From: Parvibaculum sp.
GTDB lineage: Bacteria > Pseudomonadota > Alphaproteobacteria > Parvibaculales > Parvibaculaceae
Assembly: GCF_002684405.1 (NCBI RefSeq)
Contig: NZ_NYVD01000171.1
Location: 1-36,449 of the forward strand
Length of the DNA stretch: 36,449 nt
Direction of reading: 5' to 3'
Part shown: positions 8,941 to 34,317 of the stretch, in pieces
How positions within the stretch are numbered: position 1 is the stretch's first letter
How the letters are laid out: each line of letters starts with the position of its first letter
Notes under the pieces: model-generated
What the model saw: the letters and a program-made list of their open reading frames with translations, nothing else
What the model was told of the DNA's origin: nothing
Databases searched by the model: none
Translations under genes and position numbers: made by a program

Positions 8941-9969
8941 CTACATCACACCGGCGCGCAGGAAGTCGTGGATATGGACGAGGCCGACGGGCTTGTCGGC
9001 ATCGACCACGAAGAGGCTGGTGATCTTCTTGTCATTCAGGATGTTGAGCGCTTCGGAGGCCAGCATGGAAGGCGGGATCGATTTGGGCCCAGGTGTCATG
9101 ACCTCGCCCGCGGTCTTGGTCAGCAGGTTTTCGCCCATGTGACGGCGTAAATCGCCATCGGTGATGATGCCGGCCAGTGCGCCCTTTTTGTCCGTGATGC
9201 CGATACAGCCAAAGCTTTTCTCCGACATGATAATCAGGGCCTGGCTCATCGGCATGGACTGGTCGGCGAGTGGCAGCGACGCGCCTGCATGCATGATTTC
9301 GCGGACATGGCGGAGCATCGCGCCGAGCTTGCCGCCGGGATGGAAGACGCGGAAATCGCTTGCCGTGAAGCCCTGACGTTCCAGCAGGGCGATGGCCAGC
9401 GCATCGCCGAGCGCAAGCTGCATCGTGGTCGAGGTGGTGGGGGCGAGGCCGTTGGGGCAGGCCTCCTCGGCGCGTGGAAGCACCAGCGGAACGGTCGCAG
9501 CCTTGCCGAGCGCGCTCGTGTCGACCGAGGTAATCCCGATCAGCGGTATCGAAAAACGCTTGGCGAAGGTGATGATCGAGGTGAGTTCGGCGCTTTCGCC
9601 CGACCAGGAGAGCGCCAGAATGGCATCGTCCGGCGTGATCATGCCGAGATCGCCATGGGAAGCCTCTCCGGGATGAACGAACTGGGCCGGTGTGCCGGTG
9701 GAGGCAAGCGTCGCGGCAATCTTGCGGCCCACATGGCCCGATTTGCCCATGCCGGTGACGACGACGCGCCCTGCGCGGCGCTGGCCGTCGCCATCCTCGC
9801 CCCGCACAGCCGCCAGCAATTCGACCGCATCGGAAAACGGACCGTCCAGCGAGGCGGCCATCTGCTTCAGCCCGTCGATTTCCAGCTCCAGTGTCCGCCG
9901 GGCGGAGGCGAGGTGATCGTGTGACTGGCTTTCATCCGGTGAGGCGGCGCCGGCCTTGCTCTTCGACAA
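8941..9969 (-). CDS. kdsD: Arabinose-5-phosphate isomerase, KpsF/GutQ family
   Basis: A 342-residue cytoplasmic enzyme that converts ribulose 5-phosphate to arabinose 5-phosphate, the first step to Kdo for lipid A/core or capsule. Residues about 30-215 are a SIS domain with GMGKSGHVGRKIAATLASTG (73-92), the FVHPGEASHGDLGM stretch (97-110) and LSWSGES; a pair of CBS domains follows (about 225-342), the standard KdsD order. The start is TTG at 9967-9969: AGGAG lies 6 bases upstream and the length fits the family. It is transcribed toward the repeat protein gene and diverges from the YbhN-type gene with about 218 bases between starts. KpsF paralogues are often tied to capsule; here the surrounding LPS genes make a general Kdo role likely. 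Confidence 0.93.
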   Translation of the reverse strand: MSKSKAGAASPDESQSHDHLASARRTLELEIDGLKQMAASLDGPFSDAVELLAAVRGEDGDGQRRAGRVVVTGMGKSGHVGRKIAATLASTGTPAQFVHPGEASHGDLGMITPDDAILALSWSGESAELTSIITFAKRFSIPLIGITSVDTSALGKAATVPLVLPRAEEACPNGLAPTTSTTMQLALGDALAIALLERQGFTASDFRVFHPGGKLGAMLRHVREIMHAGASLPLADQSMPMSQALIIMSEKSFGCIGITDKKGALAGIITDGDLRRHMGENLLTKTAGEVMTPGPKSIPPSMLASEALNILNDKKITSLFVVDADKPVGLVHIHDFLRAGVM

Positions 9970-10187: not shown

Positions 10188-11192
10188 ATGCAGCGTATCT
10201 CCCCACGCTGGCGGCAGGGGGCAATCACGGTCACAGTGCTGGCCCTAGTCGGCTATCTCGCGCTGTCGGTCATGGCCGATGGCGACCGTCTCATGGAGTC
10301 CGTGGCGGTGATCGGCTGGGGGCGGCTTGCCCTCGTCTTGATGCTTTCCCTTGCCAATTACGCGCTGCGCTTCTGGCGCTGGCAGCTATATCTCGGCTGG
10401 CTCGGCCATGCCGTTCCGGCATGGCGCAGCCTTCTCGTCTATCTGAGCGGCTTTGCGCTCACCGTGAGTCCCGGCAAGGCAGGCGAGGCGGTACGGTGCC
10501 TCTATCTGCGCCGCGACGACGTTCCCTATTCCACAGGGTTGGCGATGATGTTCGTGGAGCGGCTGCTCGATCTTATCGCCATTCTGGTTCTCGCCTCCTT
10601 CATCCTGCTGGCGCGTCAGGACCTCGCCTGGGCGGTTGGTTTCTTTGCCCTTTGCGTCGCGTTGGGGCTTGCCGTGTTGCATCATCGTCGGACACCGGAT
10701 CTGCTTGTCGCGCTGGGCTCGCGTTTGGGAGCGCGTGCCGCCAATGCTGGGGCCTGGCTGTCCACGACGCTCATGCACGCCCGCGCGCTGCTGCGCTGGG
10801 GACGTCTTGTGCCTGCGCTGGCGATCGCGATCGTCTCTTGGGGCGCGGAGGGTGTCGGTGTCTGGTTGCTTGCCAGCGCTTTTCCTGCCAGCCCCGATCT
10901 TGTCTTTTCCATCGGCGTCTACGGACTGGCGATCCTGGCCGGCGCGGCGGCGGTGTTCCTGCCTGCCGGGCTCGGCGGCACCGAAGCTGCCATGACTGGT
11001 CTTTTGCTGGCCGCCGGGCTCTCCCTGCCGGAAGCGGTGGCGGTCACTTTGATCTGTCGGCTTGCAACGTTGTGGTTTGCCGTTGGCTTGGGCGCGGTCG
11101 CGCTTCTCTGGCTCGAATATCGCGGAGACGACGGTGAGGATTTGGGCAAAGATCGCTCTGCCGAACTGCATCCGGGGGAGGCATCCCAATGA
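10188..11192 (+). CDS. YbhN/LPG-synthase-TM family integral membrane protein
   Basis: 334 residues, mostly hydrophobic, with several inner-membrane helices from residue 13 onward. Two family landmarks are visible: SPGKAGEAVRCLYLRRDDVP, matching the family's 'P.r.GE..R...L' loop, and FLPAGLGGTEAAMTGLL, matching its second glycine/glutamate loop. This is the membrane part of lysylphosphatidylglycerol synthases (UPF0104/YbhN), here without a soluble transferase domain. Such stand-alone proteins often occur beside lipid-linked sugar genes and are suspected flippases. GAGGG lies upstream of the ATG. Its TGA overlaps the ATG of the HAD-UbiA gene by 4 bases, making it the first gene of a coupled four-gene operon. 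By context it may flip or handle the polyprenyl-phosphate sugar made by the operon (inference). Confidence 0.85.
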   Translation: MQRISPRWRQGAITVTVLALVGYLALSVMADGDRLMESVAVIGWGRLALVLMLSLANYALRFWRWQLYLGWLGHAVPAWRSLLVYLSGFALTVSPGKAGEAVRCLYLRRDDVPYSTGLAMMFVERLLDLIAILVLASFILLARQDLAWAVGFFALCVALGLAVLHHRRTPDLLVALGSRLGARAANAGAWLSTTLMHARALLRWGRLVPALAIAIVSWGAEGVGVWLLASAFPASPDLVFSIGVYGLAILAGAAAVFLPAGLGGTEAAMTGLLLAAGLSLPEAVAVTLICRLATLWFAVGLGAVALLWLEYRGDDGEDLGKDRSAELHPGEASQ

Positions 11193-12631
11193 ATGAAACA
11201 CCCCAGTTCGCTGCGGAATCTGTTCTCTGCGTCGATCTCGACGGCACGTTGTCGCGTACCGACACGCTGATCGAAACCCTGCTGATGCTGCTGAAACAAA
11301 AGCCGCTGGCGGTGTTGCTGTTGCCGTTCTGGCTGATGCGCGGTCGGGCGGCCTTCAAAGCGGCCGTCGCACAAGCGGTTCGTTTCGATCCGGAGAGCCT
11401 TGCCTATAATGAGGAACTGGTCGACTGGCTGCGCACTGAAAAGGCGGCGGGGCGGCGTATCGTGCTGGCAACCGCGGCAGATGAGCGGATCGCCCGGCCC
11501 ATCGCGGCGCATCTGGGTATCTTCGACGATGTGATCGCCAGCGACGGCTCGGCCAATCGCAAGGGCAGGGCCAAGGCGGAGGCGCTGCGCAATGCCTATG
11601 GCAGTTTCGTCTATGTTGCGAATGCCGATGTGGATGTGCCCGTCTGGGAAGCGGCCGACGGGGCCGTGCTTGTCGCGGGCTCGCCGCGTATAGCACGGCG
11701 TCTTTCCGGCCGAGTGTCGTTCGCGCGTGTCTTCGGTCCGTCTTCGGAGCGTCCGGCCTGGCGTTTGTGGCTGCGGCAGTTGCGGGTGCATCAATGGGCG
11801 AAGAACGCGCTCATTTTCGTGCCGCTGGTACTCGCGCATCAGATCACGAATCCGGAAAAGCTTTCCATCGCCGCAATGGCGTTCCTTGCCTTCAGCCTTT
11901 GTGCCTCAAGCGTCTATGTGCTGAACGACCTTCTGGATCTGGGGTCGGACCGCAGGCATGTCACCAAGAAGAACAGGCCCTTCGCAGCCGGCGTTCTGCC
12001 GCTGGCGGCAGGGTTCACGATGATCCCGCTTCTGCTCGTGCCGGCCTTCGCGATTTCGCTCGCTATCGATATCGGTTTTGCAGGTGTGCTTGTGGGCTAT
12101 TACGGACTGACGCTGGCTTATTCGCTCGAACTCAAGCGACAGGCGGTGGTCGATGTCTTCACGCTGGCGGGTCTCTATACGATCCGGCTTTTCGCAGGTG
12201 GCGTGGTTGCCGGTGTGTATCTCTCCCCATGGCTGCTGGCGTTTTCGATCTTCCTTTTTCTGAGCCTCGCCATCGTAAAGCGTGTAGGCGAATTGCAGGG
12301 GCTTCCCCGCGACAGCGCGGGTGCGCTGCATGGCCGGGGTTATGGGCGGGACGATCTCCCGATACTGACCGCGTTGGGCGTTGCCTCGGGCTATGCGAGC
12401 GTGGTGATCTTTTCGCTCTATATCAATGCGCCCGACAGCCGGGCGCTTTATCCCCATCATGAGTTTCTATGGCTTTTCGTGCCTCTTATTCTCTTCTGGA
12501 TCAGCAGGGTCTGGCTCAAGACCTGGCGCGGCGAGATGCATGACGACCCCATCGTTTTTGCGCTGAAGGACAGGGTGAGCCAGTTGACGGCTTTGGTCGC
12601 CGCTGGCGTTCTTCTGGGATCGGCACTTTAA
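11189..12631 (+). CDS. HAD phosphatase-UbiA prenyltransferase fusion, DPPR synthase-like
   Basis: 480 residues. The N-terminal domain (about 10-175) is a haloacid-dehalogenase-type phosphatase: DLDGTLSRTD supplies the two catalytic aspartates (D16, D18), ATAADER is motif II and NRKGRAKAEAL provides the lysine. Motif IV is degenerate (VANADVDVPVW). The C-terminal domain (about 190-480) is a polytopic UbiA prenyltransferase with RVHQWAKN (199-206) and the Asp-rich NDLLDLGSDRRHVTKKNRP (246-264), the pattern of decaprenyl-phosphate phosphoribose (DPPR) synthase of mycobacteria. Known family chemistry: PRPP plus polyprenyl phosphate gives polyprenylphosphoryl-5-phosphoribose, which then needs a 5-phosphatase. 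The fused HAD domain is a natural candidate for that step (inference). The gene overlaps its upstream neighbour by 4 bases and is one base from the DprE1-like gene. A quinone-type prenyltransferase role is less likely in this company. Confidence 0.85.
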   Translation: MNETPQFAAESVLCVDLDGTLSRTDTLIETLLMLLKQKPLAVLLLPFWLMRGRAAFKAAVAQAVRFDPESLAYNEELVDWLRTEKAAGRRIVLATAADERIARPIAAHLGIFDDVIASDGSANRKGRAKAEALRNAYGSFVYVANADVDVPVWEAADGAVLVAGSPRIARRLSGRVSFARVFGPSSERPAWRLWLRQLRVHQWAKNALIFVPLVLAHQITNPEKLSIAAMAFLAFSLCASSVYVLNDLLDLGSDRRHVTKKNRPFAAGVLPLAAGFTMIPLLLVPAFAISLAIDIGFAGVLVGYYGLTLAYSLELKRQAVVDVFTLAGLYTIRLFAGGVVAGVYLSPWLLAFSIFLFLSLAIVKRVGELQGLPRDSAGALHGRGYGRDDLPILTALGVASGYASVVIFSLYINAPDSRALYPHHEFLWLFVPLILFWISRVWLKTWRGEMHDDPIVFALKDRVSQLTALVAAGVLLGSAL

Positions 12632-12632
12632 A

Positions 12633-13943
12633 ATGTCCAACGACTTCCAAAGCTGGGGGCGCTTTCCGGCAGCCCCCCACCAGAAAGCGGTCGCATGGCG
12701 CGACCGCCGCCACATGCCCATGCTTGGCGACGGTCCGGTTCTCGCGCGCGGCAATGGGCGTTCCTATGGTGATGTCTGCCTGAACGATGGGGGCACGCTT
12801 CTCACCACGCGCGCTCTCGACAAGTTCATCCTGTTCGATGCAGAAGCGGGCGAGCTGGTGTGCGAGCCGGGTGTGCTCCTCTCAGACATTCTCGACCTTA
12901 TCGTGCCGAAGGGCTGGTTTCTGCCGGTCGTGCCGGGAACCCGGCTTGTGACGGTCGGTGGCGCAATTGCAAATGATGTTCATGGCAAGAACCATCACCG
13001 TTTTGGTACCTTCGGCACCAATGTTCTCGACTTCCGCCTGCTGCGGTCCGATGGGACGGCGCTTAGCTGCTCACGGGACGAGAACGCCGAGCTTTTCACC
13101 GCGACGATTGGCGGGCTGGGGCTGACCGGGCTCATTGCCGAGGTCCGGCTGAAGCTCCGCCCCATCGCCTCGAGCTATCTGGAAGGCGAGCAATTCCGTT
13201 TCGATACGCTGGACGAGTTCTTTGCCCTGTCGGAGGGATCGGAAGCGTCTCACGAATATACGGCCGCCTGGATCGACTGCCTGGCGGAAGGCGACAGGCT
13301 GGGGCGGGGACATTTCATGCGCGCCAATCATGCGGCGGATGGGGGGCTCGATCCGGCCACCCGGTCCCTGCCTCTTGCCGTGCCGCTGACGCCGCCCTTG
13401 TCGCTTGTGACCCGGGTGAGCCTGCGCGTCTTCAACACGCTCTATTACGAGCGCCAGCGGGTGCATGAGGTGTCGCGGCGCTGGCATTTCGACCCTTATC
13501 TCTTTCCGCTCGACAGCATTGCGAACTGGAACCGGCTCTACGGACCCAAAGGGTTCCTGCAATATCAATGTGTGGTGCCGGACAATGAGGCGCGGGCGGC
13601 TTCCGCGGAACTGCTCAAGGAAATCAGCCGATCGGGCCAGGGCTCGCCGCTGGTCGTCTTCAAGACTTTCGGCGATGTCGCGTCGCCCGGCCTGCTGTCC
13701 TTCCCCATGAAGGGCGCGACGCTGGCGCTCGACTTTCCCATTCTCGGCAAGCGCACATTTGAGCTGCTTGATCGGCTGGACGGAATCGTCGCGGAAGCCG
13801 GCGGGCGGCTATATCCGGCCAAGGATGCGCGGATGAGTGTGGAGATGTTCGAAAAGGGCTTTCCGGCGCTGGACCGTTTTATGAAACAGATCGATCCGGC
13901 ATTCGAGTCCGGCTTCCAACGCCGTGTGATGGGGAGGGCGTGA
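12633..13943 (+). CDS. FAD-dependent oxidoreductase, DprE1-like
   Basis: 436 residues with a VAO/PCMH-type FAD domain: ARGNGRSYGDVCLNDGG (38-54) binds FAD and GGAIANDVHGKNHHRFGTFG (109-128) is the hallmark of decaprenylphosphoryl-ribose 2'-oxidase (DprE1). Near the C-terminus, GGRLYPAKDARMS contains K397, which aligns from memory with the catalytic Lys418 of the mycobacterial enzyme. At the position I align with mycobacterial Cys387 (the benzothiazinone target) the residue is Ala365, in LALDFPI. Likely reaction: oxidation of the ribose 2'-OH of the lipid-linked sugar to the keto form, on the cytoplasmic or periplasmic face of the inner membrane. It starts one base after the UbiA stop and overlaps the SDR gene, so stoichiometric co-translation is expected. 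A generic alditol or sugar oxidase is the alternative. Confidence 0.87.
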   Translation: MSNDFQSWGRFPAAPHQKAVAWRDRRHMPMLGDGPVLARGNGRSYGDVCLNDGGTLLTTRALDKFILFDAEAGELVCEPGVLLSDILDLIVPKGWFLPVVPGTRLVTVGGAIANDVHGKNHHRFGTFGTNVLDFRLLRSDGTALSCSRDENAELFTATIGGLGLTGLIAEVRLKLRPIASSYLEGEQFRFDTLDEFFALSEGSEASHEYTAAWIDCLAEGDRLGRGHFMRANHAADGGLDPATRSLPLAVPLTPPLSLVTRVSLRVFNTLYYERQRVHEVSRRWHFDPYLFPLDSIANWNRLYGPKGFLQYQCVVPDNEARAASAELLKEISRSGQGSPLVVFKTFGDVASPGLLSFPMKGATLALDFPILGKRTFELLDRLDGIVAEAGGRLYPAKDARMSVEMFEKGFPALDRFMKQIDPAFESGFQRRVMGRA

Positions 13944-14680
13944 TGACGCGCATTGTGATTTTCGGTGCCACATCGGCGATCGCGCAGGCCGCCGCCCGGC
14001 AATGGGCGGCCGCTGGCGGTGCCTGCTTTGTGCTGGTGGGACGTAATGAGACCGCGTTGGGCGATATCGCCGCCGATCTGACCGCACGCGGAGCGGAGGA
14101 TGTGATCGCGAAGCCTGCCGATTTGGCGGTGCTGGACGGGCTCAGCCGTCTCTGTGCGGAGGCGGAAGAGGCGCTTGGCGGGATCGATATCGCGCTCATC
14201 GCCCATGGCGTCCTGCCCGACCAAGTCGAGGTGACCGCCTCGGCAGACAATCTTCTGGAAAACCTCGGTGTCAATGCGTTGAGTCCGGCCGCGCTGATGG
14301 TCGAATTTGGGCGGCTCATGAAGGATCGCGGGCATGGCAGTCTTGTTGTCATATCCTCGGTGGCCGGTGACCGGGGACGACCGAGCAACTGGGCCTATGG
14401 AGGCGCGAAGGCCATGCTCTCCGTCATGGGCGAGGGCATGGGCCTGGAGCTCGACAGCGCCGGGGTTAATGTCGTGGTCGTGAAGCCCGGCTTCGTCGAT
14501 ACGCCGATGACGGCGGATTTCCCGAAGGGGCCTTTATGGGCCTCGGCCGATCAGGTGGCCGGGGCCATCGTGCGGGCGGTCGGGAAAAGACGAAATGGTG
14601 TGATATATGCGCCGGCATGGTGGCGATTTGTCATGCTGATCGTCCGTTTCGCACCTGCCTTTATCGTGCGCCGACTGTGA
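13943..14680 (+). CDS. Short-chain dehydrogenase/reductase, DprE2-like
   Basis: 245 residues. The N-terminal Rossmann motif reads IFGATSAIAQAAA (the usual TGxxxGxG is degenerate, as in DprE2 proteins). NAG is replaced by IAHG, the catalytic Ser is in VVISSVAGDRG, and YGGAK supplies the YxxxK pair. The hydrophobic, basic C-terminus (VMLIVRFAPAFIVRRL) could touch the membrane. Expected role with the preceding flavoenzyme: NAD(P)H-dependent reduction of the 2'-keto lipid-linked sugar to the arabino form, completing a 2'-epimerisation. Two overlapping starts exist: GTG at 13940 inside the upstream stop and ATG at 13943. I chose ATG because GGGGAGGG ends about 5 bases before it. Last gene of the four-gene operon. 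Confidence 0.87.
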   Translation: MTRIVIFGATSAIAQAAARQWAAAGGACFVLVGRNETALGDIAADLTARGAEDVIAKPADLAVLDGLSRLCAEAEEALGGIDIALIAHGVLPDQVEVTASADNLLENLGVNALSPAALMVEFGRLMKDRGHGSLVVISSVAGDRGRPSNWAYGGAKAMLSVMGEGMGLELDSAGVNVVVVKPGFVDTPMTADFPKGPLWASADQVAGAIVRAVGKRRNGVIYAPAWWRFVMLIVRFAPAFIVRRL

Positions 14681-14840: not shown

Positions 14841-15650
14841 GTGGGACTAAAAAATCTCGTTCATCGTATCCAAAGCGCTCTGGGAGACAGCGGCGGTACA
14901 CCGCCCTCGGCCCCGGAAGGCATGCGCATCTATGCGATCGGCGATATCCATGGACGGGCCGATCTGCTGGAAGGACTTCTGGCACGCATCGAAAAGGATG
15001 CGCGGGACTTCTCCGGGCGCAAAGTGATCGTGTTTCTGGGCGACTACGTCGATCGCGGGATGGATTCGAGAGCGGTACTGGACCGGCTCGTGGCGGGGCC
15101 CCCGACGGCTTTCGAGGCGGTTTATCTCAAGGGCAACCACGAAGAAGCGATGCTGCAATTCCTCGCCGATGCCGAATTCGGCCGGACGTGGAAATATTAC
15201 GGCGGGCTTGAGACGCTTCATTCATATGGCGTCCGGGACCTTATGCGGCACGACAGCGCCGACGAATTCGAGCAAGCGCGTGAAAAGCTTGAGGCTGAAT
15301 TGCCCGAAGCGCATAAGAAGTTTCTCCAGCGGCTCGAGACGAGCGCCGAGTTGGGGGATTATTTCTTTGCACATGCCGGGGTTCGGCCGGGCGTTCCGCT
15401 ATCGAAACAAATTGACGAAGACCTGCTATGGATACGCGAGGACTTCCTCCTTTCGGAGAGTTCCTTCGGCAAAGTTGTCGTTCACGGACATACCCCGGAA
15501 GAGAAAGCCGTCTTTCGAAACAACAGAATTGGTGTGGATACGGGGGCGTACATGACCGGCGTCCTGACCGCTCTGGTGCTTGAGGGCAGGTCGCAGCGGC
15601 TCTTGCAGACCGGGCAGGACGATGCCCGCAGGCTTGCCGTTGCGAGTTGA
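14841..15650 (+). CDS. PPP-family metallophosphatase (Ser/Thr or Tyr protein phosphatase-like)
   Basis: 269 residues with the full calcineurin-like PPP signature: GDIHGRADLLEGLL, GDYVDRGMDS, KGNHEEAM, then FFAHAGVRPG and VVHGHTPEEKAV, which together supply the two-metal site. The family includes bacterial protein phosphatases that remove phosphate from Ser/Thr and Tyr, and dinucleotide polyphosphatases. The start is GTG with AGGGA about 8 bases upstream, inside a palindrome. A later in-frame ATG at 14922 would remove 27 residues before the first motif. The gene lies immediately upstream of a polysaccharide export set that contains a tyrosine autokinase but no Wzb-type or PHP-type phosphatase, so it may be the opposing phosphatase (inference). 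The alternative is housekeeping Ap4A or cell-wall-precursor hydrolysis. Confidence 0.85.
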   Translation: MGLKNLVHRIQSALGDSGGTPPSAPEGMRIYAIGDIHGRADLLEGLLARIEKDARDFSGRKVIVFLGDYVDRGMDSRAVLDRLVAGPPTAFEAVYLKGNHEEAMLQFLADAEFGRTWKYYGGLETLHSYGVRDLMRHDSADEFEQAREKLEAELPEAHKKFLQRLETSAELGDYFFAHAGVRPGVPLSKQIDEDLLWIREDFLLSESSFGKVVVHGHTPEEKAVFRNNRIGVDTGAYMTGVLTALVLEGRSQRLLQTGQDDARRLAVAS

Positions 15651-15802: not shown

Positions 15803-16471
15803 ATGACCAGTCTGGCGCAATCTTCTTCGTCGTTCCGCAGGGACGCGGTATCGCGGCACGGATCGGCCATACAGCGCTGGTTACCCCTGATCGCAGCAGG
15901 GTTGCTGGTTCTCTTTTCGCTGGCAGGGTGTTCGGACGGTCCGAGAGAGAACCTGCCAGGGCCTCAAGCCGCGCCCGTGGCTGCGGGCGAGGTCCCGCTG
16001 CCGGAAGATGCCAATGTCGATTATACGCTTGGATCCGGCGACAAGCTTCGCGTCATCGTCTATGGCGAGAAGGATTTGTCCGGCGAATTCGACATTTCAG
16101 GCGCCGGGAATGTGGCCCTGCCGCTTGTGGGGCAGGTCCGCGCGCAGGGGCTGACGGTCGGTCAGTTCGAGACGGCGGTCGAGAACGCCCTCAAACAGGG
16201 TTATCTGAATGAGCCCCGGGTCAGTGTTGAGGTGTTGAATTATCGCCCGTTTTACATCTACGGAGAGGTTGGTGAGGCCGGTCAGTACCCCTATTCGAGT
16301 GGGATGACCGTGCTCAATGCCATAGCCGTTGCGGGGGGGTACACCTATCGCGCGGCCAACGACCGGGTCTACATCACACGCGGCAAGGGCAATGAGGTCG
16401 AGTATCCGGCCAGTCAGGCCGTGAAAATCCTGCCCGGGGACGTCATTCGAGTACCCGAGCGGTTCTTCTGA
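15803..16471 (+). CDS. Short polysaccharide export outer-membrane lipoprotein (OPX, GumB-like)
   Basis: 222 residues. An N-terminal signal with lipobox FSLAGC (Cys near residue 43) predicts a lipoprotein. A Poly_export domain follows (YTLGSGDKLRVIVYGEKDLS through VSVEVLNYRPFYIYGEV), then one SLBB domain (GEAGQYPYSSGMTVLNAIAV), ending ILPGDVIRVPERFF. The protein stops there, without the long C-terminal part that in Wza forms the outer-membrane alpha-helical pore. It is therefore like GumB-type short OPX proteins, which need a separate porin. The start is ATG at 15803 with GAGGACC upstream. It heads the export set (unknown secreted protein, barrel, autokinase) and probably forms the periplasmic collar between the ExoP-type kinase and the barrel (inference). 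Confidence 0.9.
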   Translation: MTSLAQSSSSFRRDAVSRHGSAIQRWLPLIAAGLLVLFSLAGCSDGPRENLPGPQAAPVAAGEVPLPEDANVDYTLGSGDKLRVIVYGEKDLSGEFDISGAGNVALPLVGQVRAQGLTVGQFETAVENALKQGYLNEPRVSVEVLNYRPFYIYGEVGEAGQYPYSSGMTVLNAIAVAGGYTYRAANDRVYITRGKGNEVEYPASQAVKILPGDVIRVPERFF

Positions 16472-16817
16472 GTGAATCTGGTTGACGATAATTTTGTGGT
16501 GACCTGCCTAGAAGCGCCCGCCGGACGGCGGCGTGAGCGCTGCTTATAAGCCTTTGTATCTAAAAGGCTAATTTCGCCCCTCAAGCGACGCATTTTTACA
16601 ACAGCGGGGAGGAAACCGTCATTCACATGGCGAATCGCCGGTACTTTAAAAATTTGGCGGTTCGGTGCACCGCAGCAGCTATGATACTTTACCATCAATT
16701 AATTCAGGTAAGTACGATCCGGGCGTCGTCAAAGGCTGGATCGGGTATGGATTTCCGGTTTTGCGCCGCAGCAATGAGCGCAGGTCCGGCAACCTCAAAA
16801 AGAGGGGAGTTCTTGTC
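16472..16817 (+). other. 346-base gap with stem-loops, no gene
   Basis: I see no convincing gene. Just after the export gene come a G+C-rich stem (AGCGC..GCGCT, 16513-16541, with an inner CCGCC-GGAC-GGCGG hairpin), the palindrome GCTTATAAGC (16542-16551) and a third stem, AGCCTTT (16549-16555) with AAAGGCT (16563-16569). They may end the upstream transcript, though no T-run follows. TATGAT at 16680-16685 resembles a -10 box for the next gene, but no -35 box sits at the right distance. The open frames at 16627 and 16665 have no family resemblance. Confidence 0.45.
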
Positions 16818-17372
16818 ATGCTCAAGAAGATGATCACCGCGGCTGTGCTCGGCCTGGGACTTGGGGTGTTCATGACGCCTCTGGTTGTGCCGGTTTCTTC
16901 GGCCAACGCCGCCACCGCAGATGAACTTGCGACCATGCAGACCGCTATCGAGGCCCTGATTGTCGCGAATGCCGGCGACGAAGCCGCTCTCGAGGCCGCG
17001 ATCAAGGATTACGTCGCTAATTCCGACGATCCGGAAGGCGCCGCTCAGGCATTTGTCCAAGCAGTCACCAATCCGAAAAGCCCTGCGGCGCAGACCGCGC
17101 TCGCCAATAATGCCGGCCTGAAGGCCGCCGCTTCCCGCGGCCTCGGTGCCGCAATCGCCTTGATTGGGGTAGAAAATCCGGACGTGGCCAGCAGCATGCA
17201 GGCGGTGGTCGAAGCCTCCGACGATCCGACGCTGGTGGCGTCTGTTTCCGAGGGCAATGCCACGGAAACGAAGTCGATCACAGGTGAGGGCGTCTCGGAT
17301 GAATCGTCCGAAGCCGTCGATGACGCTAATGAAAATGACACAACACCGGAAAGCCCGGCGAGCCCGAATTAG
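16818..17372 (+). CDS. Small secreted acidic Ala-rich protein of unknown function
   Basis: 184 residues. ATG at 16818 follows AGAGGGGAG at 8-base spacing. The N-terminus is a clear signal peptide (MLKKMITAAVLGLGLGVF, cleavage probably after SANA near residue 31). The mature part is Ala-rich and helical, with recurring short units (DELATMQTAIEALI, DEAALEAAIKDYV, DPEGAAQAFVQAV), then an acidic, Ser/Thr/Glu-rich tail with no fold prediction. It has no lipobox, cysteine or transmembrane helix after the signal, so it should be free in the periplasm or outside. I recognise no family. It sits between the export lipoprotein and the outer-membrane barrel, so a part in polymer export (plug, chaperone, gate) or a matrix protein is possible (inference from position only). 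Confidence 0.8.
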   Translation: MLKKMITAAVLGLGLGVFMTPLVVPVSSANAATADELATMQTAIEALIVANAGDEAALEAAIKDYVANSDDPEGAAQAFVQAVTNPKSPAAQTALANNAGLKAAASRGLGAAIALIGVENPDVASSMQAVVEASDDPTLVASVSEGNATETKSITGEGVSDESSEAVDDANENDTTPESPASPN

Positions 17373-17481
17373 GGCTCGTCTTTCCGGCGACTATAGCGAC
17401 TTTACGTTCCGTATACGCTGCGCCTGACGCCTATTCGTTCGCGTGGCAAGGAAGACAACTCGACTTTGGAGGTCACATCAA

Positions 17482-18753
17482 ATGGGACGAGCCCGGATTT
17501 ATTTCGCCTCGGCGGCACTCGTAGGCCTGACCTGCGCCGCTCTGCCGACCCTGGCGCAGGCCCAGGAGGCCGATACCAATCTTGCCGACGTTCGTGACCA
17601 GGGCGTTATGGAGCGTGCGCGGCCCGGTTATGATCCCGTTGGTATCCGCGCCGGCAGTTTCATGGTGTTCCCCACTGCTTCTGTGGGCGAGAGCTACAAC
17701 GACAATATCTATGCGACCAGCAACAACACGGTCGATGATTTCATCACCACCCTTTCGGCGGGGATATCGGCCAATTCGGTGTGGGGCCGGCACGCCCTTT
17801 CGCTGAGCGGCGGCGTAACCCAGCAGCTCTATGCCGACAAGTCCGACGAAGATCGGTTCAACTGGAACCTGGGCGGAGCCGGGCGGCTGGATATCAGCCG
17901 CGACACGGCGCTCAATGGGTCGGCGCGATATGCGCAGCTGCATGAGGATCGCGGCAACCCGAACTCTCCGACGACCTCTCAAGAACCCATCGAATACAAT
18001 CTGTTCAACGCCGCGACGAATTTGAGCCACCGCTTCAATCGCGTCAATGCGAGCGTGGGGGTTGAATACAACAATTACGACTACAAGGACGCTACCACCC
18101 TGGGCGGCGCCAATATCGACCAGGACTATCGCGACCGTGACGAATACACCGAAACCGCCAGGCTTGGTTATTTCGTTTCCCCCGACACGAATGTCTATGT
18201 CGAAGGTCGGTTCGATCAGCGTCGCTACGATCTCACCACGCCCGCCGGCAACCGGGATTCCGATGGCTGGGCCGCGCTGGTCGGTACGGAATTCCAGATT
18301 TCGCGCCTGACTCAGGGCAATGTCTATGTCGGTTACCAGGAACGTGACTACAAGGCCGCCGCGCTGAGCAGCACTCAGGGTCTTGCCTATGGTATCGATG
18401 TGGAATGGTTCGCCACGCCTCTGACCACGGTCACGGTGTCCGGTGACAGCCGCGTCGAGGAAACGACCGTTGGCGCCGCATCGGGTTATGACCGCAATAG
18501 CCTGTCGGTGAATGTGGATCATGAGCTGCTCCGCAACGTGATCCTCTCCGGCGGGGTCAGCTACACCAACAATGATTTCAACGACAACCCGCGTAACGAC
18601 GATACGACCGGGGCGACCGTAGGGGTCAAGTATCTGATCAACCGGAATTTCGACCTGGGACTGAACTACACCTACACGAACCGGGACTCCAATACGGCTG
18701 GTTTTGATTACACCCGCAACGTGGTCGGCCTGAAGCTGACCGGCAAGCTCTGA
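17482..18753 (+). CDS. Outer-membrane beta-barrel protein, BBP2-like, probable polysaccharide porin
   Basis: 423 residues: a signal peptide ending near TLAQAQ (about residue 27), a short periplasmic segment, then a long series of amphipathic strands with alternating aromatic and polar residues (e.g. ASVGESYNDNIYATSNNTVD, GVTQQLYADKSDEDRF, NLGLNYTYTNRDSNTAGFDY) to the end. This is the putative beta-barrel porin 2 pattern (GESYNDNIYAT is the typical first strand). ATG at 17482 has GGAGG 9 bases upstream; the frame is open 13 codons earlier without an RBS. Position and size fit a porin partner for the short export lipoprotein at 15803. It could instead be a glycan-binding or general barrel. Confidence 0.82.
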   Translation: MGRARIYFASAALVGLTCAALPTLAQAQEADTNLADVRDQGVMERARPGYDPVGIRAGSFMVFPTASVGESYNDNIYATSNNTVDDFITTLSAGISANSVWGRHALSLSGGVTQQLYADKSDEDRFNWNLGGAGRLDISRDTALNGSARYAQLHEDRGNPNSPTTSQEPIEYNLFNAATNLSHRFNRVNASVGVEYNNYDYKDATTLGGANIDQDYRDRDEYTETARLGYFVSPDTNVYVEGRFDQRRYDLTTPAGNRDSDGWAALVGTEFQISRLTQGNVYVGYQERDYKAAALSSTQGLAYGIDVEWFATPLTTVTVSGDSRVEETTVGAASGYDRNSLSVNVDHELLRNVILSGGVSYTNNDFNDNPRNDDTTGATVGVKYLINRNFDLGLNYTYTNRDSNTAGFDYTRNVVGLKLTGKL

Positions 18754-18777
18754 TCGCAAGAGCGTTCGAACAAGTCG

Positions 18778-18816
18778 AGCAGGGCAGGCAGGGCGGAAGT
18801 CTTGGCCTGCCCTGTT
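18778..18816 (+). terminator. Strong hairpin after the barrel gene, probable terminator
   Basis: AGCAGGGCAGGC (18778-18789) pairs with GCCTGCCCTGTT (18805-18816), 12 pairs including one G-T, around a 15-base loop. It starts 24 bases after the barrel stop. The T-run is displaced (GTTTTT about 20 bases on), so termination may be partial and let some transcripts reach the kinase gene. Confidence 0.6.
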
Positions 18817-18908
18817 CCGTTATGGCTGTTTTTGGCTGTCGTATGGGATGTGCAGGGTCCGCGATCATGTATATTGCGGTGCAATGTTCGGCGATTGGGG
18901 TTTAGAAG

Positions 18909-21188
18909 ATGAACGCACCGTCTAAAGGTTCTGGCATGTCGTCGGCTAAATGGACTCCCCCCGGAGCGACGGAGGTGCAGACCGACTCCTTCCTGGAGTT
19001 CGATCTGATGGCCATCCTGCGGATCATGCGCAAGCGCGCTGGCGTTATCATCGGTATTACCGTTGTTCTGACGGCGCTAATCGTGCTTGCCATTACCCAG
19101 ATGCGTCCTCTCTATACCGCTCAAACTCTGGTTCTGGTCGACAGCCAGAAGAGCAACGTCGTGGATATGGAGGCGGTCGTCTCCGGCATCCCGGCCAATG
19201 ACGCCGCTTTGGACAGTGAAGTAGAGGTCATCAAGTCCCGCAATCTCATCGAACGGGTTGTGGATAACGAGAACCTGATCGACGATCCGGAGTTTAATTC
19301 AGCGCTGCGGGAGCCTTCGGCGCTTCGCTGGCTTAATCCGCGCTATCTGCTGGGCCGTCTTTTCTCCCTGTTGTCTCCAAGCGACCAGACCGACGCTGTT
19401 GAGCAGAGTGCCTCTCAGGAAGAGATGACGCAGAGATCCGTCGTGGACTCGGTTTTGTCCGATCTGGAAGTCGCAAGGCGCGGCCTCACCTATACGATTG
19501 AAATCAATTTCACGTCGGAGAATCGCTACAAGGCCGCCAAGATCGCGAATGCGATTGCTAATGCCTATATCGTCGACCAGCTCGATGCGAAGTTCAACGC
19601 GACCAAGCAGGCCAATGAATGGCTTGCCGGGCGACTGGACGATCTGCGCCGTCAGGTTACCGATTCCGAGCGCGCTGTGGAGCTCTATCGATCGCGGCAC
19701 GGGCTTGAAGAATCGAAAGGTATGACCGTTACGGAGCAACAGCTCTCCGAACTCAACGCTCAACTGATCCTGGCGCGGACCAATCTCGTTGAAGCAAGGG
19801 CCAAGTATAACCGCGCCCGGCAGTTGAGACGGGAAGGAAAGGGCGTCGAAACGGTCGGCGATGTGGTCCAATCGGGGACGATCTCGGCACTGCGTCAGAA
19901 GCAGGCGGAGCTGACCCGGGAGGAAGCCAATCTTTCCGCCAAATACGGGCCGCGCCATCCCGCGATCGTGAATATCGAGGCGCAGCAGAAAGACATTCAA
20001 TCGCAGATCGCCGCAGAAGCCGGGCGAATTATCGAGAGTCTGAGAAACGACGTTTCCGTGGCCTCGACCCGTGTCCGGGCCCTTGAAAGCAATCTCAAAG
20101 AGATCAAGGGCGAAACCGGCACCAATAATGAAGCGCTGATCCAGTTGCGCGAGCTGGAGCGCAAGGCGACGGCGAACCGGCAGGTCTATGAGGCATTTCT
20201 CAAGCGCTTCAAGGAAACCAGCGAGCAGGAAGACATTCAGACCCCCGATACCCGGGTCATTTCCAAGGCGGTGGTACCGGGCGGGCCGTCCTTCCCGAAG
20301 ACGTCACTTTTCGTGATGCTCGGCTTTGCACTGTCGCTGATGACAGGCGTTGGCGCGGCCTTCCTGCTTGAACATCTCGATAACGGCATTCAGACATCCG
20401 GCGACCTGGAGAGGCTTCTGGCGCTGCCCAACCTGGCGTCGATCCCGCTGACGCCGAAGGAGCGCGGGCCGGATGGAAAGGTATTGTCTCCGCAGGACTA
20501 TCTGGTCATGAAGCCGCTTTCGTCCTATTCGGAGGCATTCCGAAGCCTGCGAAGCGCGCTTCAGTTTTCCAATGTGGACAATCCCCCAAAGGTCGTTCTT
20601 TTCACATCGGCGCTGCCGAATGAAGGCAAGACGACTTCGGCGGTGTCCTTTGCGCGCGCTGCTGCGTCGGCCGGTCTGAAAGTCGTTCTCCTTGATTGCG
20701 ACCTGCGTCACCCGTCGGTGGCGGAAGCGTTGAAGATCAGCCGGCCCGAACAGGGGTTGGTGGAACTTCTTGCCTCGCGTCTCGACTTCAAGGAAGTCGT
20801 CATCGAAGACGAGAAGACCGGGATGGAGGTCATCCCGGTTGCCAAGGGAACGGCCAACCCGCCCGACATTTTCGGGTCATCGCAGATGAAACTTCTGTTT
20901 GAGCGGCTCCGCGAAGCCTACAACCTTGTTGTTGTCGACAGCCCGCCGGTCATGCCCGTGTCGGATGCCCGCGTCCTGTCACAGATCGTCGACGAGACAG
21001 TGTTCGTTGCGCGCTGGAACGAAACCCCGCGCGATGCGCTGCAGAACGCGGTGAAGCAGTTGCGCGATTTCGGCGCACCTCTAGCCGGCACTGTGCTTTC
21101 CATGGTCGATACGGCCAAGCAGGCAAAATACGGCTATGGCGACGGCGGTTATTATTACAGCCGCTACAGCAAGTATTATGTCAACTGA
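18909..21188 (+). CDS. Polysaccharide co-polymerase with tyrosine autokinase (ExoP/GumC-Wzc type)
   Basis: 759 residues, inner membrane. The Wzz domain begins near residue 30, with transmembrane helix 1 at about 44-64 and helix 2 at about 465-487 enclosing a long periplasmic region rich in coiled coil (about 220-440). The cytoplasmic C-terminus is a BY-kinase: Walker A SALPNEGKTT (567-576), Walker A' VVLLDCDLRHP (592-602), Walker B VVVDSPP (674-680), then an eight-tyrosine tail at Y741-Y757. Known role: cycles of Tyr autophosphorylation control chain length and export of Wzy-dependent polymers. Kinase and membrane parts are in one chain, as in proteobacteria. ATG at 18909 is close to a weak RBS. 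The next gene overlaps its end by 11 bases. Confidence 0.93.
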   Translation: MNAPSKGSGMSSAKWTPPGATEVQTDSFLEFDLMAILRIMRKRAGVIIGITVVLTALIVLAITQMRPLYTAQTLVLVDSQKSNVVDMEAVVSGIPANDAALDSEVEVIKSRNLIERVVDNENLIDDPEFNSALREPSALRWLNPRYLLGRLFSLLSPSDQTDAVEQSASQEEMTQRSVVDSVLSDLEVARRGLTYTIEINFTSENRYKAAKIANAIANAYIVDQLDAKFNATKQANEWLAGRLDDLRRQVTDSERAVELYRSRHGLEESKGMTVTEQQLSELNAQLILARTNLVEARAKYNRARQLRREGKGVETVGDVVQSGTISALRQKQAELTREEANLSAKYGPRHPAIVNIEAQQKDIQSQIAAEAGRIIESLRNDVSVASTRVRALESNLKEIKGETGTNNEALIQLRELERKATANRQVYEAFLKRFKETSEQEDIQTPDTRVISKAVVPGGPSFPKTSLFVMLGFALSLMTGVGAAFLLEHLDNGIQTSGDLERLLALPNLASIPLTPKERGPDGKVLSPQDYLVMKPLSSYSEAFRSLRSALQFSNVDNPPKVVLFTSALPNEGKTTSAVSFARAAASAGLKVVLLDCDLRHPSVAEALKISRPEQGLVELLASRLDFKEVVIEDEKTGMEVIPVAKGTANPPDIFGSSQMKLLFERLREAYNLVVVDSPPVMPVSDARVLSQIVDETVFVARWNETPRDALQNAVKQLRDFGAPLAGTVLSMVDTAKQAKYGYGDGGYYYSRYSKYYVN

Positions 21189-21882
21189 CATGCCTGCAGC
21201 GGGCCGGTGGACGGCGATCTTTTTCGCCGCCATCGGTCTTTTCACCATATCGCTCGCTGTGCCGCGGGTGCTGGCCTACGGCGTCATCGCCCGGGACGCC
21301 GGACAGGCGCCCACTGCGCTGGCGAATGGGAGCAGGCTGTCGTCAGAGGCCATCGAACAGGCGCGCCGGGCCTACCGAAATGCGCTCGCAGTGCATCGCT
21401 CGGACGGTCAGATCGCACAGGATCTTGCCAGGTTCGACCTCCTGGCGCTGAAAGACGGAGACGGCGCGGCGCTACTCGATGCCAGTTCGCATTTGCGCTC
21501 GGCGGCCGCCCTTATGCCCAACAATGCCTTTGTCTGGAGCCTGCTGGCTCGAACGGCGCAGCGCCGGCAAGCGCCTGCGGACGAGATCATAGCCTTTCTG
21601 CGACTGTCGAAGCTGACCGGACGTTTCGAGGCGTCGAGCATGCTCCTGCGCGTTCATGTTGCCATGCTTATCTGGAAAGACGTTCCGCCCGACCTGCAGC
21701 GGGACATCAGGCAGGATGTCGGGCGCTTCACGTCAAATGGGAAGCTTCTCCATGCCCTTTTCCGCGTCTATCTCTCGCTGCCCTATGACGCCCGAGCGAC
21801 CTTCCTCGATGTTCTCTTCGATACGCCTGCCAGGCGAGGATGGTTTCAGCGGCGAATAGTTGATTGGACCAAGCTGCGATAG
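21178..21882 (+). CDS. Single-pass membrane protein with helical repeats, unknown function
   Basis: 234 residues. One N-terminal transmembrane helix (about 10-30, TAIFFAAIGLFTISLAV) is followed by an all-helical soluble part with TPR-like spacing (e.g. RSAAALMPNNAFVWSLLART, then VHVAMLIWKDVPPDLQRDI), ending FQRRIVDWTKLR. I do not recognise a named family. The start at 21178 overlaps the autokinase stop by 11 bases; a start at 21190, just after that stop, is also possible. The overlap implies translational coupling. It converges on an O-antigen ligase/polymerase-like gene with 15 bases between stops. Placed between kinase and ligase, it is probably an accessory of polymer assembly facing the periplasm (inference). 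Confidence 0.75.
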   Translation: MSTDMPAAGRWTAIFFAAIGLFTISLAVPRVLAYGVIARDAGQAPTALANGSRLSSEAIEQARRAYRNALAVHRSDGQIAQDLARFDLLALKDGDGAALLDASSHLRSAAALMPNNAFVWSLLARTAQRRQAPADEIIAFLRLSKLTGRFEASSMLLRVHVAMLIWKDVPPDLQRDIRQDVGRFTSNGKLLHALFRVYLSLPYDARATFLDVLFDTPARRGWFQRRIVDWTKLR

Positions 21883-33048: not shown

Positions 33049-34317
33049 ATGGGGGCGGCGATGGTCAATGAGTATGCTCGATGGAGCGGTGTCCGACAAT
33101 ATTTGCCGGAGATAACTGTTCTTCTTCTGATCAATGCTGCCGTCATCGGCGCGGTGCTGGTCAACCCATTTGCACTGGGGCTCGATTTCTGGGCTGTGAA
33201 GGCTGCCGAAATTGCATCGTTTCATATTCCCGGGAGCAACTTTTACCCGATCGGTCCTGCGCTCTTGTGTCTTCCCTTCTTCCTGGTCGGTTTAGGGTCC
33301 CTCGGCGCTCTTTTCTTCTATCTGAATGCGGGAGTGGTTCTCTATGCTCTGATTTGCAGGCGCATAGAAGATCGGCTCATAGCCAGAATAGCGCTCTTCT
33401 CGATCCTTCTGAATCCCTATTTCTTTTGGCTTGTTGTTTCCTCGCATGACTGCGTTCTGCAATTTTTTACCCTCTCCCTCGCCTTTTATCTGCTGATAGA
33501 AGCAAGGCCCGTTCTCTTTGCCCTTGCGGGGATTCTCGCTGCTACCGTCAGGTCGACGGATTTGTTCGTGTTCGGAGGGCTGGCAATCCTCATGTTCGCA
33601 ATGTGGAGGAAGTCGATCTGGTTATTGTCCCCGGCGCTCTACCTCTTTGTGGCCTTTGGCAATCTCGCCCTCTATGACAGCCCATCGCCTTCGACGAACG
33701 GGGGGTACAATATTTTCCTCGGTCAGCATCCGCTGTTTGCCGTTGCCTATCCCAGCTACGACATAGACCAATTTTTCGAAACCAAAGGATTGAGCAGTCC
33801 GGAGCATCTGTTCGGTATGCACCGGACGCCTCAGACAGAAGCGGAGTTGGATACGCGGTATCGCGAGATGGGGTTTTCCTTTGCGAAGGACGATCCGGTT
33901 CGCGCGGCCCAGAATGCTCTATCGAAAGCAGCGCTCTGGCTCTTCAATTTTCAGAAAGTGCCCGAGGTTTCGGGGAAGATCTACTTGGAGGAAGGCGGAC
34001 ATTCAATCGCCATCGAGTCCCTGCGCGGCGGCAAGCTGTTATTGGGACAGATGGCGTATACCCTCTACAAGTTCGTCTACAATATTCTCTTTGCCGTGAC
34101 GATTTTCTATGTGTGTTTGCGCCCAAGCGATTTTCTATCGGAGCGGCATTTCTTTCTTATCCTACCCGTCTTTTTTGTGCTTCCGGTGGTTCTGCTGTCG
34201 TTTCCCGATACAAGGTTCAAGATCGTTTATGAGGTAATGGCTGTGCCGGCTATTCTCCTGTTTGCATTCAGGGCGGCAGCGCAGATCGTCAACCGGGAAA
34301 GTGCGAATCGGGAGTGA
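33049..34317 (+). CDS. Polytopic membrane protein, possible GT-C glycosyltransferase
   Basis: 422 residues, about 9-11 helices. The first periplasmic loop contains LGLDFWAVKAAE, a stretch with acidic residues at the position where GT-C enzymes keep the catalytic Asp. Further on come a long loop rich in charged residues (about 205-300) and the C-terminal LSFPDTRFKIVYEVMAVPAI, which resembles the 'R(Y/F)..P' close of ArnT/PMT-like proteins. Such enzymes use polyprenyl-phosphate sugars on the periplasmic face. I am not sure of the family; O-unit modification or an unrelated transporter remain possible. Two starts: ATG at 33049 and ATG at 33061. Next gene follows after 23 bases. Confidence 0.7.
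   Translation: MGAAMVNEYARWSGVRQYLPEITVLLLINAAVIGAVLVNPFALGLDFWAVKAAEIASFHIPGSNFYPIGPALLCLPFFLVGLGSLGALFFYLNAGVVLYALICRRIEDRLIARIALFSILLNPYFFWLVVSSHDCVLQFFTLSLAFYLLIEARPVLFALAGILAATVRSTDLFVFGGLAILMFAMWRKSIWLLSPALYLFVAFGNLALYDSPSPSTNGGYNIFLGQHPLFAVAYPSYDIDQFFETKGLSSPEHLFGMHRTPQTEAELDTRYREMGFSFAKDDPVRAAQNALSKAALWLFNFQKVPEVSGKIYLEEGGHSIAIESLRGGKLLLGQMAYTLYKFVYNILFAVTIFYVCLRPSDFLSERHFFLILPVFFVLPVVLLSFPDTRFKIVYEVMAVPAILLFAFRAAAQIVNRESANRE

Follow-up and report, generated by a model that had tools for sequence, protein, structure and literature searches.

A probable donor-synthesis cassette for lipid-linked D-arabinose in Parvibaculum, with a YbhN-type protein in the probable flippase position

Introduction

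Lipid-linked D-arabinose is made in mycobacteria by the DPA pathway (Rv3806c, Rv3807c, DprE1, DprE2, Rv3789), in which the phosphatase is a separate protein, Rv3807c, and Rv3789 is the proposed flippase. In rhizobia, the noeC/H/O pathway gives D-arabinosylated Nod factors. The operon of Rhizobium IRBG74 is ordered noeC-N-H-O-P; noeN was proposed to encode a DPPR phosphatase, and its deletion lowered arabinosylation without abolishing it (PMC5080398). Citrobacter youngae ORF15, a HAD(PRP)-UbiA fusion, makes farnesyl-P-ribofuranose from PRPP, and its HAD mutant D18A gives mostly the 5-phosphate product and little dephosphorylated product (PMC11127046). This system adds ribofuranose (Ribf, O1) or, through ORF13, xylofuranose (Xylf, O2), and it combines a MATE flippase with a linked GT136 GT-C enzyme. 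No protein has been directly proven by experiment to flip polyprenyl-phosphate pentoses, including the candidates of Citrobacter and mycobacteria (PMC11127046).

Here we analyse a related locus of the alphaproteobacterium Parvibaculum sp. Its lipid-linked D-arabinose pathway seems to be the one already known from mycobacteria, rhizobia and Citrobacter; what seems less expected is a YbhN-type protein replacing the usual flippase.

Results and Discussion

Gene content and relation to known systems

The window, meaning the whole stretch of DNA analysed, comprises 36,449 nucleotides of contig NZ_NYVD01000171.1 (assembly GCF_002684405.1). Four genes at 10188-14680 follow each other tightly head to tail; neighbouring genes overlap by 4 bases at two of the junctions and are 1 base apart at the other (Table 1). 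Their identities had been proposed in an earlier note, with which ORF positions and Pfam/NCBIfam families agree. The same gene order is seen again in many genomes and is therefore not due to chance. We conclude that these genes very probably form a donor-synthesis cassette for lipid-linked D-arabinose destined for a cell-surface polysaccharide.

The earlier note had compared the cassette with mycobacterial UbiA, DprE1 and DprE2, and these are the nearest solved proteins: Rv3806c for the HAD-UbiA fusion (8j8j, E 2e-29), M. tuberculosis DprE1 for the DprE1-like protein (4fdn, E 4e-72) and M. tuberculosis DprE2 for the DprE2-like protein (21gq_C, E 6e-26). The likeness to the noe genes, also drawn there, holds for the UbiA domain, DprE1 and DprE2 (46%, 39% and 34% identity to NoeC, NoeH and NoeO of the Sesbania symbiont Sinorhizobium alkalisoli) but not for the phosphatase: S. 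alkalisoli NoeC lacks a HAD domain, and no trace of one was found upstream of it either.

The cassette shares with the mycobacterial pathway homologues of UbiA, DprE1 and DprE2 in which the active sites are conserved, and with the rhizobial noeC-(GtrA)-noeH-noeO-noeP operon the UbiA-DprE1-DprE2 order. It differs from the former in a HAD domain fused to UbiA, whereas Rv3807c is an unrelated protein, and in YbhN where mycobacteria have Rv3789. The noe operon has GtrA, a linked NoeP transferase and a Nod-factor acceptor; here there is YbhN and no recognised linked transferase. Common to this cassette and the C. youngae system (PMC11127046) are the type of HAD(PRP)-UbiA fusion that makes polyprenyl-P-ribofuranose and the addition of an epimerase to diversify the sugar. 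This cassette differs in having DprE1/E2, a YbhN-type protein instead of a MATE flippase, and no identified linked GT-C.

Table 1. Features of the window and of the noe operons used for comparison
Feature	Position	Strand	Basis and remarks
KdsD/KpsF arabinose-5-phosphate isomerase	8941-9969	-	Conserved left neighbour, divergent
YbhN-type polytopic membrane protein (PF03706 LPG_synthase_TM, TIGR00374)	10188-11192	+	334 aa; Pfam/NCBIfam and slot exchange with GtrA
HAD-UbiA fusion	11189-12631	+	480 aa; Pfam/NCBIfam, Rv3806c alignment, 106 homologues
HAD phosphatase domain of the 11189-12631 product	N-terminal, about residues 10-180		Pfam PF12710
Predicted phosphoribosyl:polyprenyl-phosphate transferase domain of the 11189-12631 product	C-terminal, about residues 190-475		Pfam PF01040 UbiA
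DprE1-like FAD oxidase (predicted polyprenyl-P-ribose 2'-oxidase)	12633-13943	+	436 aa; NCBIfam, 4fdn match
DprE2-like SDR reductase (predicted 2-keto reduction to arabinose)	13940-14680	+	246 aa, GTG start; NCBIfam, 21gq_C
Calcineurin-like phosphoesterase	14841-15650	+	Conserved right neighbour, with or without cassette
Exopolysaccharide export/assembly genes (Wza-like, BBP2 porin, Wzz/BY-kinase, VpsP-like)	15803-21882	+	Pfam/NCBIfam
Orphan polytopic protein, candidate GT-C arabinosyltransferase	33049-34317	+	Sequence appearance only
GtrA family genes at the noeN position	L173:6891-7313, L176:6161-6583		noe operons

The HAD-UbiA fusion

The fusion matches NF006088 over its full length (636 bits, cut-off 351), a family whose name says nothing of phosphoribosyl function. 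Its alignment with Rv3806c shows the UbiA NDxxDxxxD motif and the PRPP-binding residues to be present. The phosphoribosyl-transfer residues, on which the earlier note had staked its interpretation, are intact: R22, K28, Y70, N73, D77, D81, K87, R90, Y138, K143 and Y157 of Rv3806c are identical (11/11) in the fusion, as R199, K205, Y243, N246, D250, D254, K260, R263, Y311, K316 and Y330. All of these except D81 are among the substrate and Mg residues named in the available part of PMC10994848. Rv3806c K208, in a loop of uncertain alignment, has no Lys opposite it. Across 106 homologues, the PRPP and Mg residues of the UbiA domain are invariant or nearly so.

The HAD domain keeps D16 and D18 of motif I, K129 and D149, with N145 replacing the first Asp of motif IV. 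The phosphatase motif is conserved with three exceptions among the 106 HAD-UbiA proteins, since D16 and K129 are each found in 103 and D149 in all. Other HADs have Asp at this position, which counts against the pathway reading, but Asn is common to 65 of the 106 relatives (38 have Asp). We rejected the idea that motif IV Asn marks a dead phosphatase because Asn is the majority state. An apparent association of this Asn with DprE1 was unsupported by independent pairs on the tree. The earlier suggestion of a 5'-phosphatase role for the fused HAD has a direct precedent in C. youngae ORF15, which performs the first two steps; this activity is therefore established for a homologue (PMC11127046).

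The genome that carries the window also encodes a second, stand-alone PRP-like HAD (G000:C91:19828-20223; L083:9281-9997), whose gene adjoins an RgpF-like gene and the gene for a 373-aa protein without a Pfam match. This locus is possibly a cytoplasmic ribofuranosyltransferase system.

Proposed pathway and identity of the sugar

The names DprE1-like and DprE2-like are used because both proteins miss the NCBIfam equivalog cut-offs (NF053785, 358 bits against 500; NF053786, 166 bits against 250), which counts against the pathway proposed below; the DprE2-like protein also scores below the cut-off of PRK07102 (233 bits against 267). The DprE1-like protein keeps active-site H117, K119 and K397, and the DprE1 and DprE2 genes are paired. 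Residue 365 of the DprE1-like protein is Ala, in place of the Cys with which benzothiazinones react in M. tuberculosis DprE1.

From gene content, gene order, conserved catalytic residues and co-occurrence, we infer each reaction, arabinose as the sugar, YbhN as the flippase, and the nature of acceptor and transferase. The UbiA domain would use PRPP to load a polyprenyl phosphate carrier, probably undecaprenyl phosphate, with 5-phosphoribose, giving polyprenyl-P-ribose-5-P, from which the fused HAD domain would remove the 5'-phosphate. The DprE1-like enzyme would then oxidize polyprenyl-P-ribose at C2 and the DprE2-like enzyme reduce it to the arabino form, polyprenyl-P-D-arabinofuranose, which the YbhN-type protein would flip to the periplasm. 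A GT-C enzyme, unlinked or unrecognised, would finally pass the arabinose to the exopolysaccharide of the neighbouring Wzx/Wzy-type locus. The cassette would thus be the donor-synthesis part of a pentofuranose 'three-component' glycosylation system. We regard this full route, from PRPP to lipid-linked D-arabinofuranose that is flipped and transferred to an exported polysaccharide, as highly likely.

It is improbable that the lipid carries ribofuranose or some other pentofuranose and that the DprE-like pair performs some other redox reaction, such as one at C3 leading to xylofuranose. HAD-UbiA loci without DprE1/E2 do exist, DprE1 being absent from 30 of 91 loci, and ribose is expected there; the sub-threshold NCBIfam scores point the same way. 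However, systems for xylofuranose rely on one SDR epimerase (ORF13) and candidate Araf systems on DprE1/E2 homologues (PMC11127046), NoeH/NoeO homologues act in D-arabinosylation, and the DprE1 active-site motifs are kept. The presence of both DprE1 and DprE2 makes arabinose, as predicted from the genes, much likelier than ribose. We give equally little credence to the HAD domain being a fused remnant whose 5'-phosphatase role is filled by another enzyme, as in mycobacteria. This would accommodate the Asp-to-Asn change in motif IV, the lack of HAD in NoeC, the activity left in ORF15 D18A (PMC11127046) and the loss of the HAD motif in three relatives. Two of these (L073, L074) still have DprE1/E2, so the HAD domain is apparently dispensable there, presumably with another phosphatase. 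The near-universal nucleophile and Lys, together with the prevalence of motif IV Asn, argue instead for an active HAD. In L073 and L074, a PMT/PMT_2-type protein is encoded near the fusion that has lost its HAD catalytic motif.

The probable flippase position

The product of the first gene matches PF03706 with 137 bits (Pfam cut-off 33.4), and TIGR00374 too; phmmer gave no credible match to a solved homologue. Within the genus, 7 of the 8 genomes with the cassette encode a PF03706 protein over the cut-off, against 0 of the 19 others (Fisher 9e-6, kinship ignored), and six of the seven hold the PF03706 protein inside a cassette. YbhN is missing beside the HAD-UbiA cassette in three genus genomes, which counts against the pathway reading: G003 has no PF03706 protein at all, G004 has a larger one about 27 kb from the cassette, and that of G007 sits in a second, HAD-less UbiA-YbhN-DprE1-DprE2 cassette. 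YbhN also occurs in the HAD-less UbiA-DprE1-DprE2 cassettes L082 and L084.

A wider set comprised 91 loci with both flanks, 61 DprE1-positive and 30 DprE1-negative. YbhN lies near 21 of the former and 2 of the latter. No DprE1-positive locus has both YbhN (21) and GtrA (11) within 3.5 kb (p 0.011, uncorrected); both are out of range in 29 of the 61, again counting against the pathway reading. GtrA lies between HAD-UbiA and DprE1 in five loci (L061, L062, L070, L128, L167). On the UbiA-domain tree the YbhN/GtrA slot changes at least 8 times, with too few phylogenetically independent pairs for significance.

Given its restriction to cassette genomes in the genus and its absence from loci with GtrA, YbhN probably fills the flippase slot, and the 10188-11192 product is probably a polyprenyl-P-arabinose flippase, a function predicted from these patterns. 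The broader proposal, that PF03706 proteins form an additional class of polyprenyl-phosphate-pentose flippases and can change places with GtrA in Araf cassettes across Proteobacteria, whether HAD-fused or not, is one we favour by a little. It is less probable, though well worth considering, that YbhN is an accessory or unrelated membrane protein and that an unlinked transporter does the flipping. That would explain the HAD-UbiA cassettes of the genus without adjacent YbhN (L053, L054, L056), and it gains from association statistics that ignore kinship, from the shortage of informative pairs and from a literature that gave no flippase assay for this YbhN branch. Against it stand the strong co-occurrence of cassette and YbhN in the genus, the exclusion of GtrA and the repeated exchange of the slot. 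The PF03706 family also takes in the MprF flippase domain, which further argues for YbhN as the flippase. No description of YbhN in this role turned up in the literature searched, though Fig. S11 in the supplement of PMC11127046 may already show YbhN. A cassette that repeatedly has PF03706 where others have GtrA offers a directly testable flippase candidate.

The comparison also bears on noeN. Both the IRBG74 plasmid and S. alkalisoli have a gene annotated as GtrA family between those for UbiA and DprE1, and the S. alkalisoli protein at this position scores 150 bits against a GtrA profile; the equation of the GtrA gene with BN877_p0343 (noeN) is by position only. For the noeN-position gene of these two Sesbania symbionts, a flippase fits the sequence evidence better than a phosphatase. 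This suggests that noeN encodes a flippase and not the phosphatase that the pathway still lacks.

Possible acceptor and transferase

Right of the phosphoesterase gene comes an exopolysaccharide locus of the Wza/BBP2/Wzc type, which also encodes glycosyltransferases, Wzx and Wzy-like proteins. The neighbouring genes fit exopolysaccharide better than LPS as the acceptor, which may also be a protein. The kdsD product on the left probably serves Kdo and not the arabinose-lipid pathway. We set KdsD aside as a D-arabinose source since kdsD is also present in cassette-less genomes and the known route starts at PRPP.

No GT-C arabinosyltransferase was recognisable beside the cassette or confirmed in the window, which counts against the pathway reading. 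Searches with the orphan candidate at 33049-34317 against Pfam (up to E 10), NCBIfam and PDB sequences gave nothing, and neither did comparing its profile with those of PMT_2-type proteins and of NoeP; two AlphaFold models (pLDDT 44 and 36) were no more informative on GT-C identity. Also counting against the pathway reading, relatives of this candidate in the genus are confined to one member (G006), and it is missing from the closest relative, G019. Among 385 genomes of the class, no relative was found outside its own genome. The genome encodes two PMT_2-type proteins, on contigs other than that of the window; one adjoins a divergent glycosyltransferase-2-like gene, a neighbour that suggests another role.

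Distribution within the genus

Of the 27 genomes of the genus, 8 carry HAD-UbiA (over cut-off), and these 8 and no others carry DprE1. There are 16 cassette-less genomes in which kdsD and the phosphoesterase gene share a contig, and 15 of these have them as divergent neighbours 158-384 bp apart. This gap is 4871 bp in the window, with the cassette inside, and 7492 bp in G019, where the cassette is followed by an IS1595-type transposase gene and a TnpB-like gene. The cassette lies on the other side of kdsD in G006 and G015, and elsewhere, beside a partial second kdsD, in G023. This varied presence and position around kdsD indicates that the cassette is an exchangeable module of the surface-polysaccharide region, and suggests more broadly that D-arabinose donor synthesis is such a module in Gram-negative surface-polysaccharide loci.

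Two details of this site may be added. In G019 (L051:13252-15740), the IS1595-type transposase gene that immediately follows the cassette overlaps the TnpB/Cas12f-like gene (TNB domain). The site is also variable in G018: between kdsD and the phosphoesterase gene there are about 10 kb of other DNA (L179, G018:C7:73536-83531), which include the gene for a 1164-aa protein with several glycosyltransferase domains.
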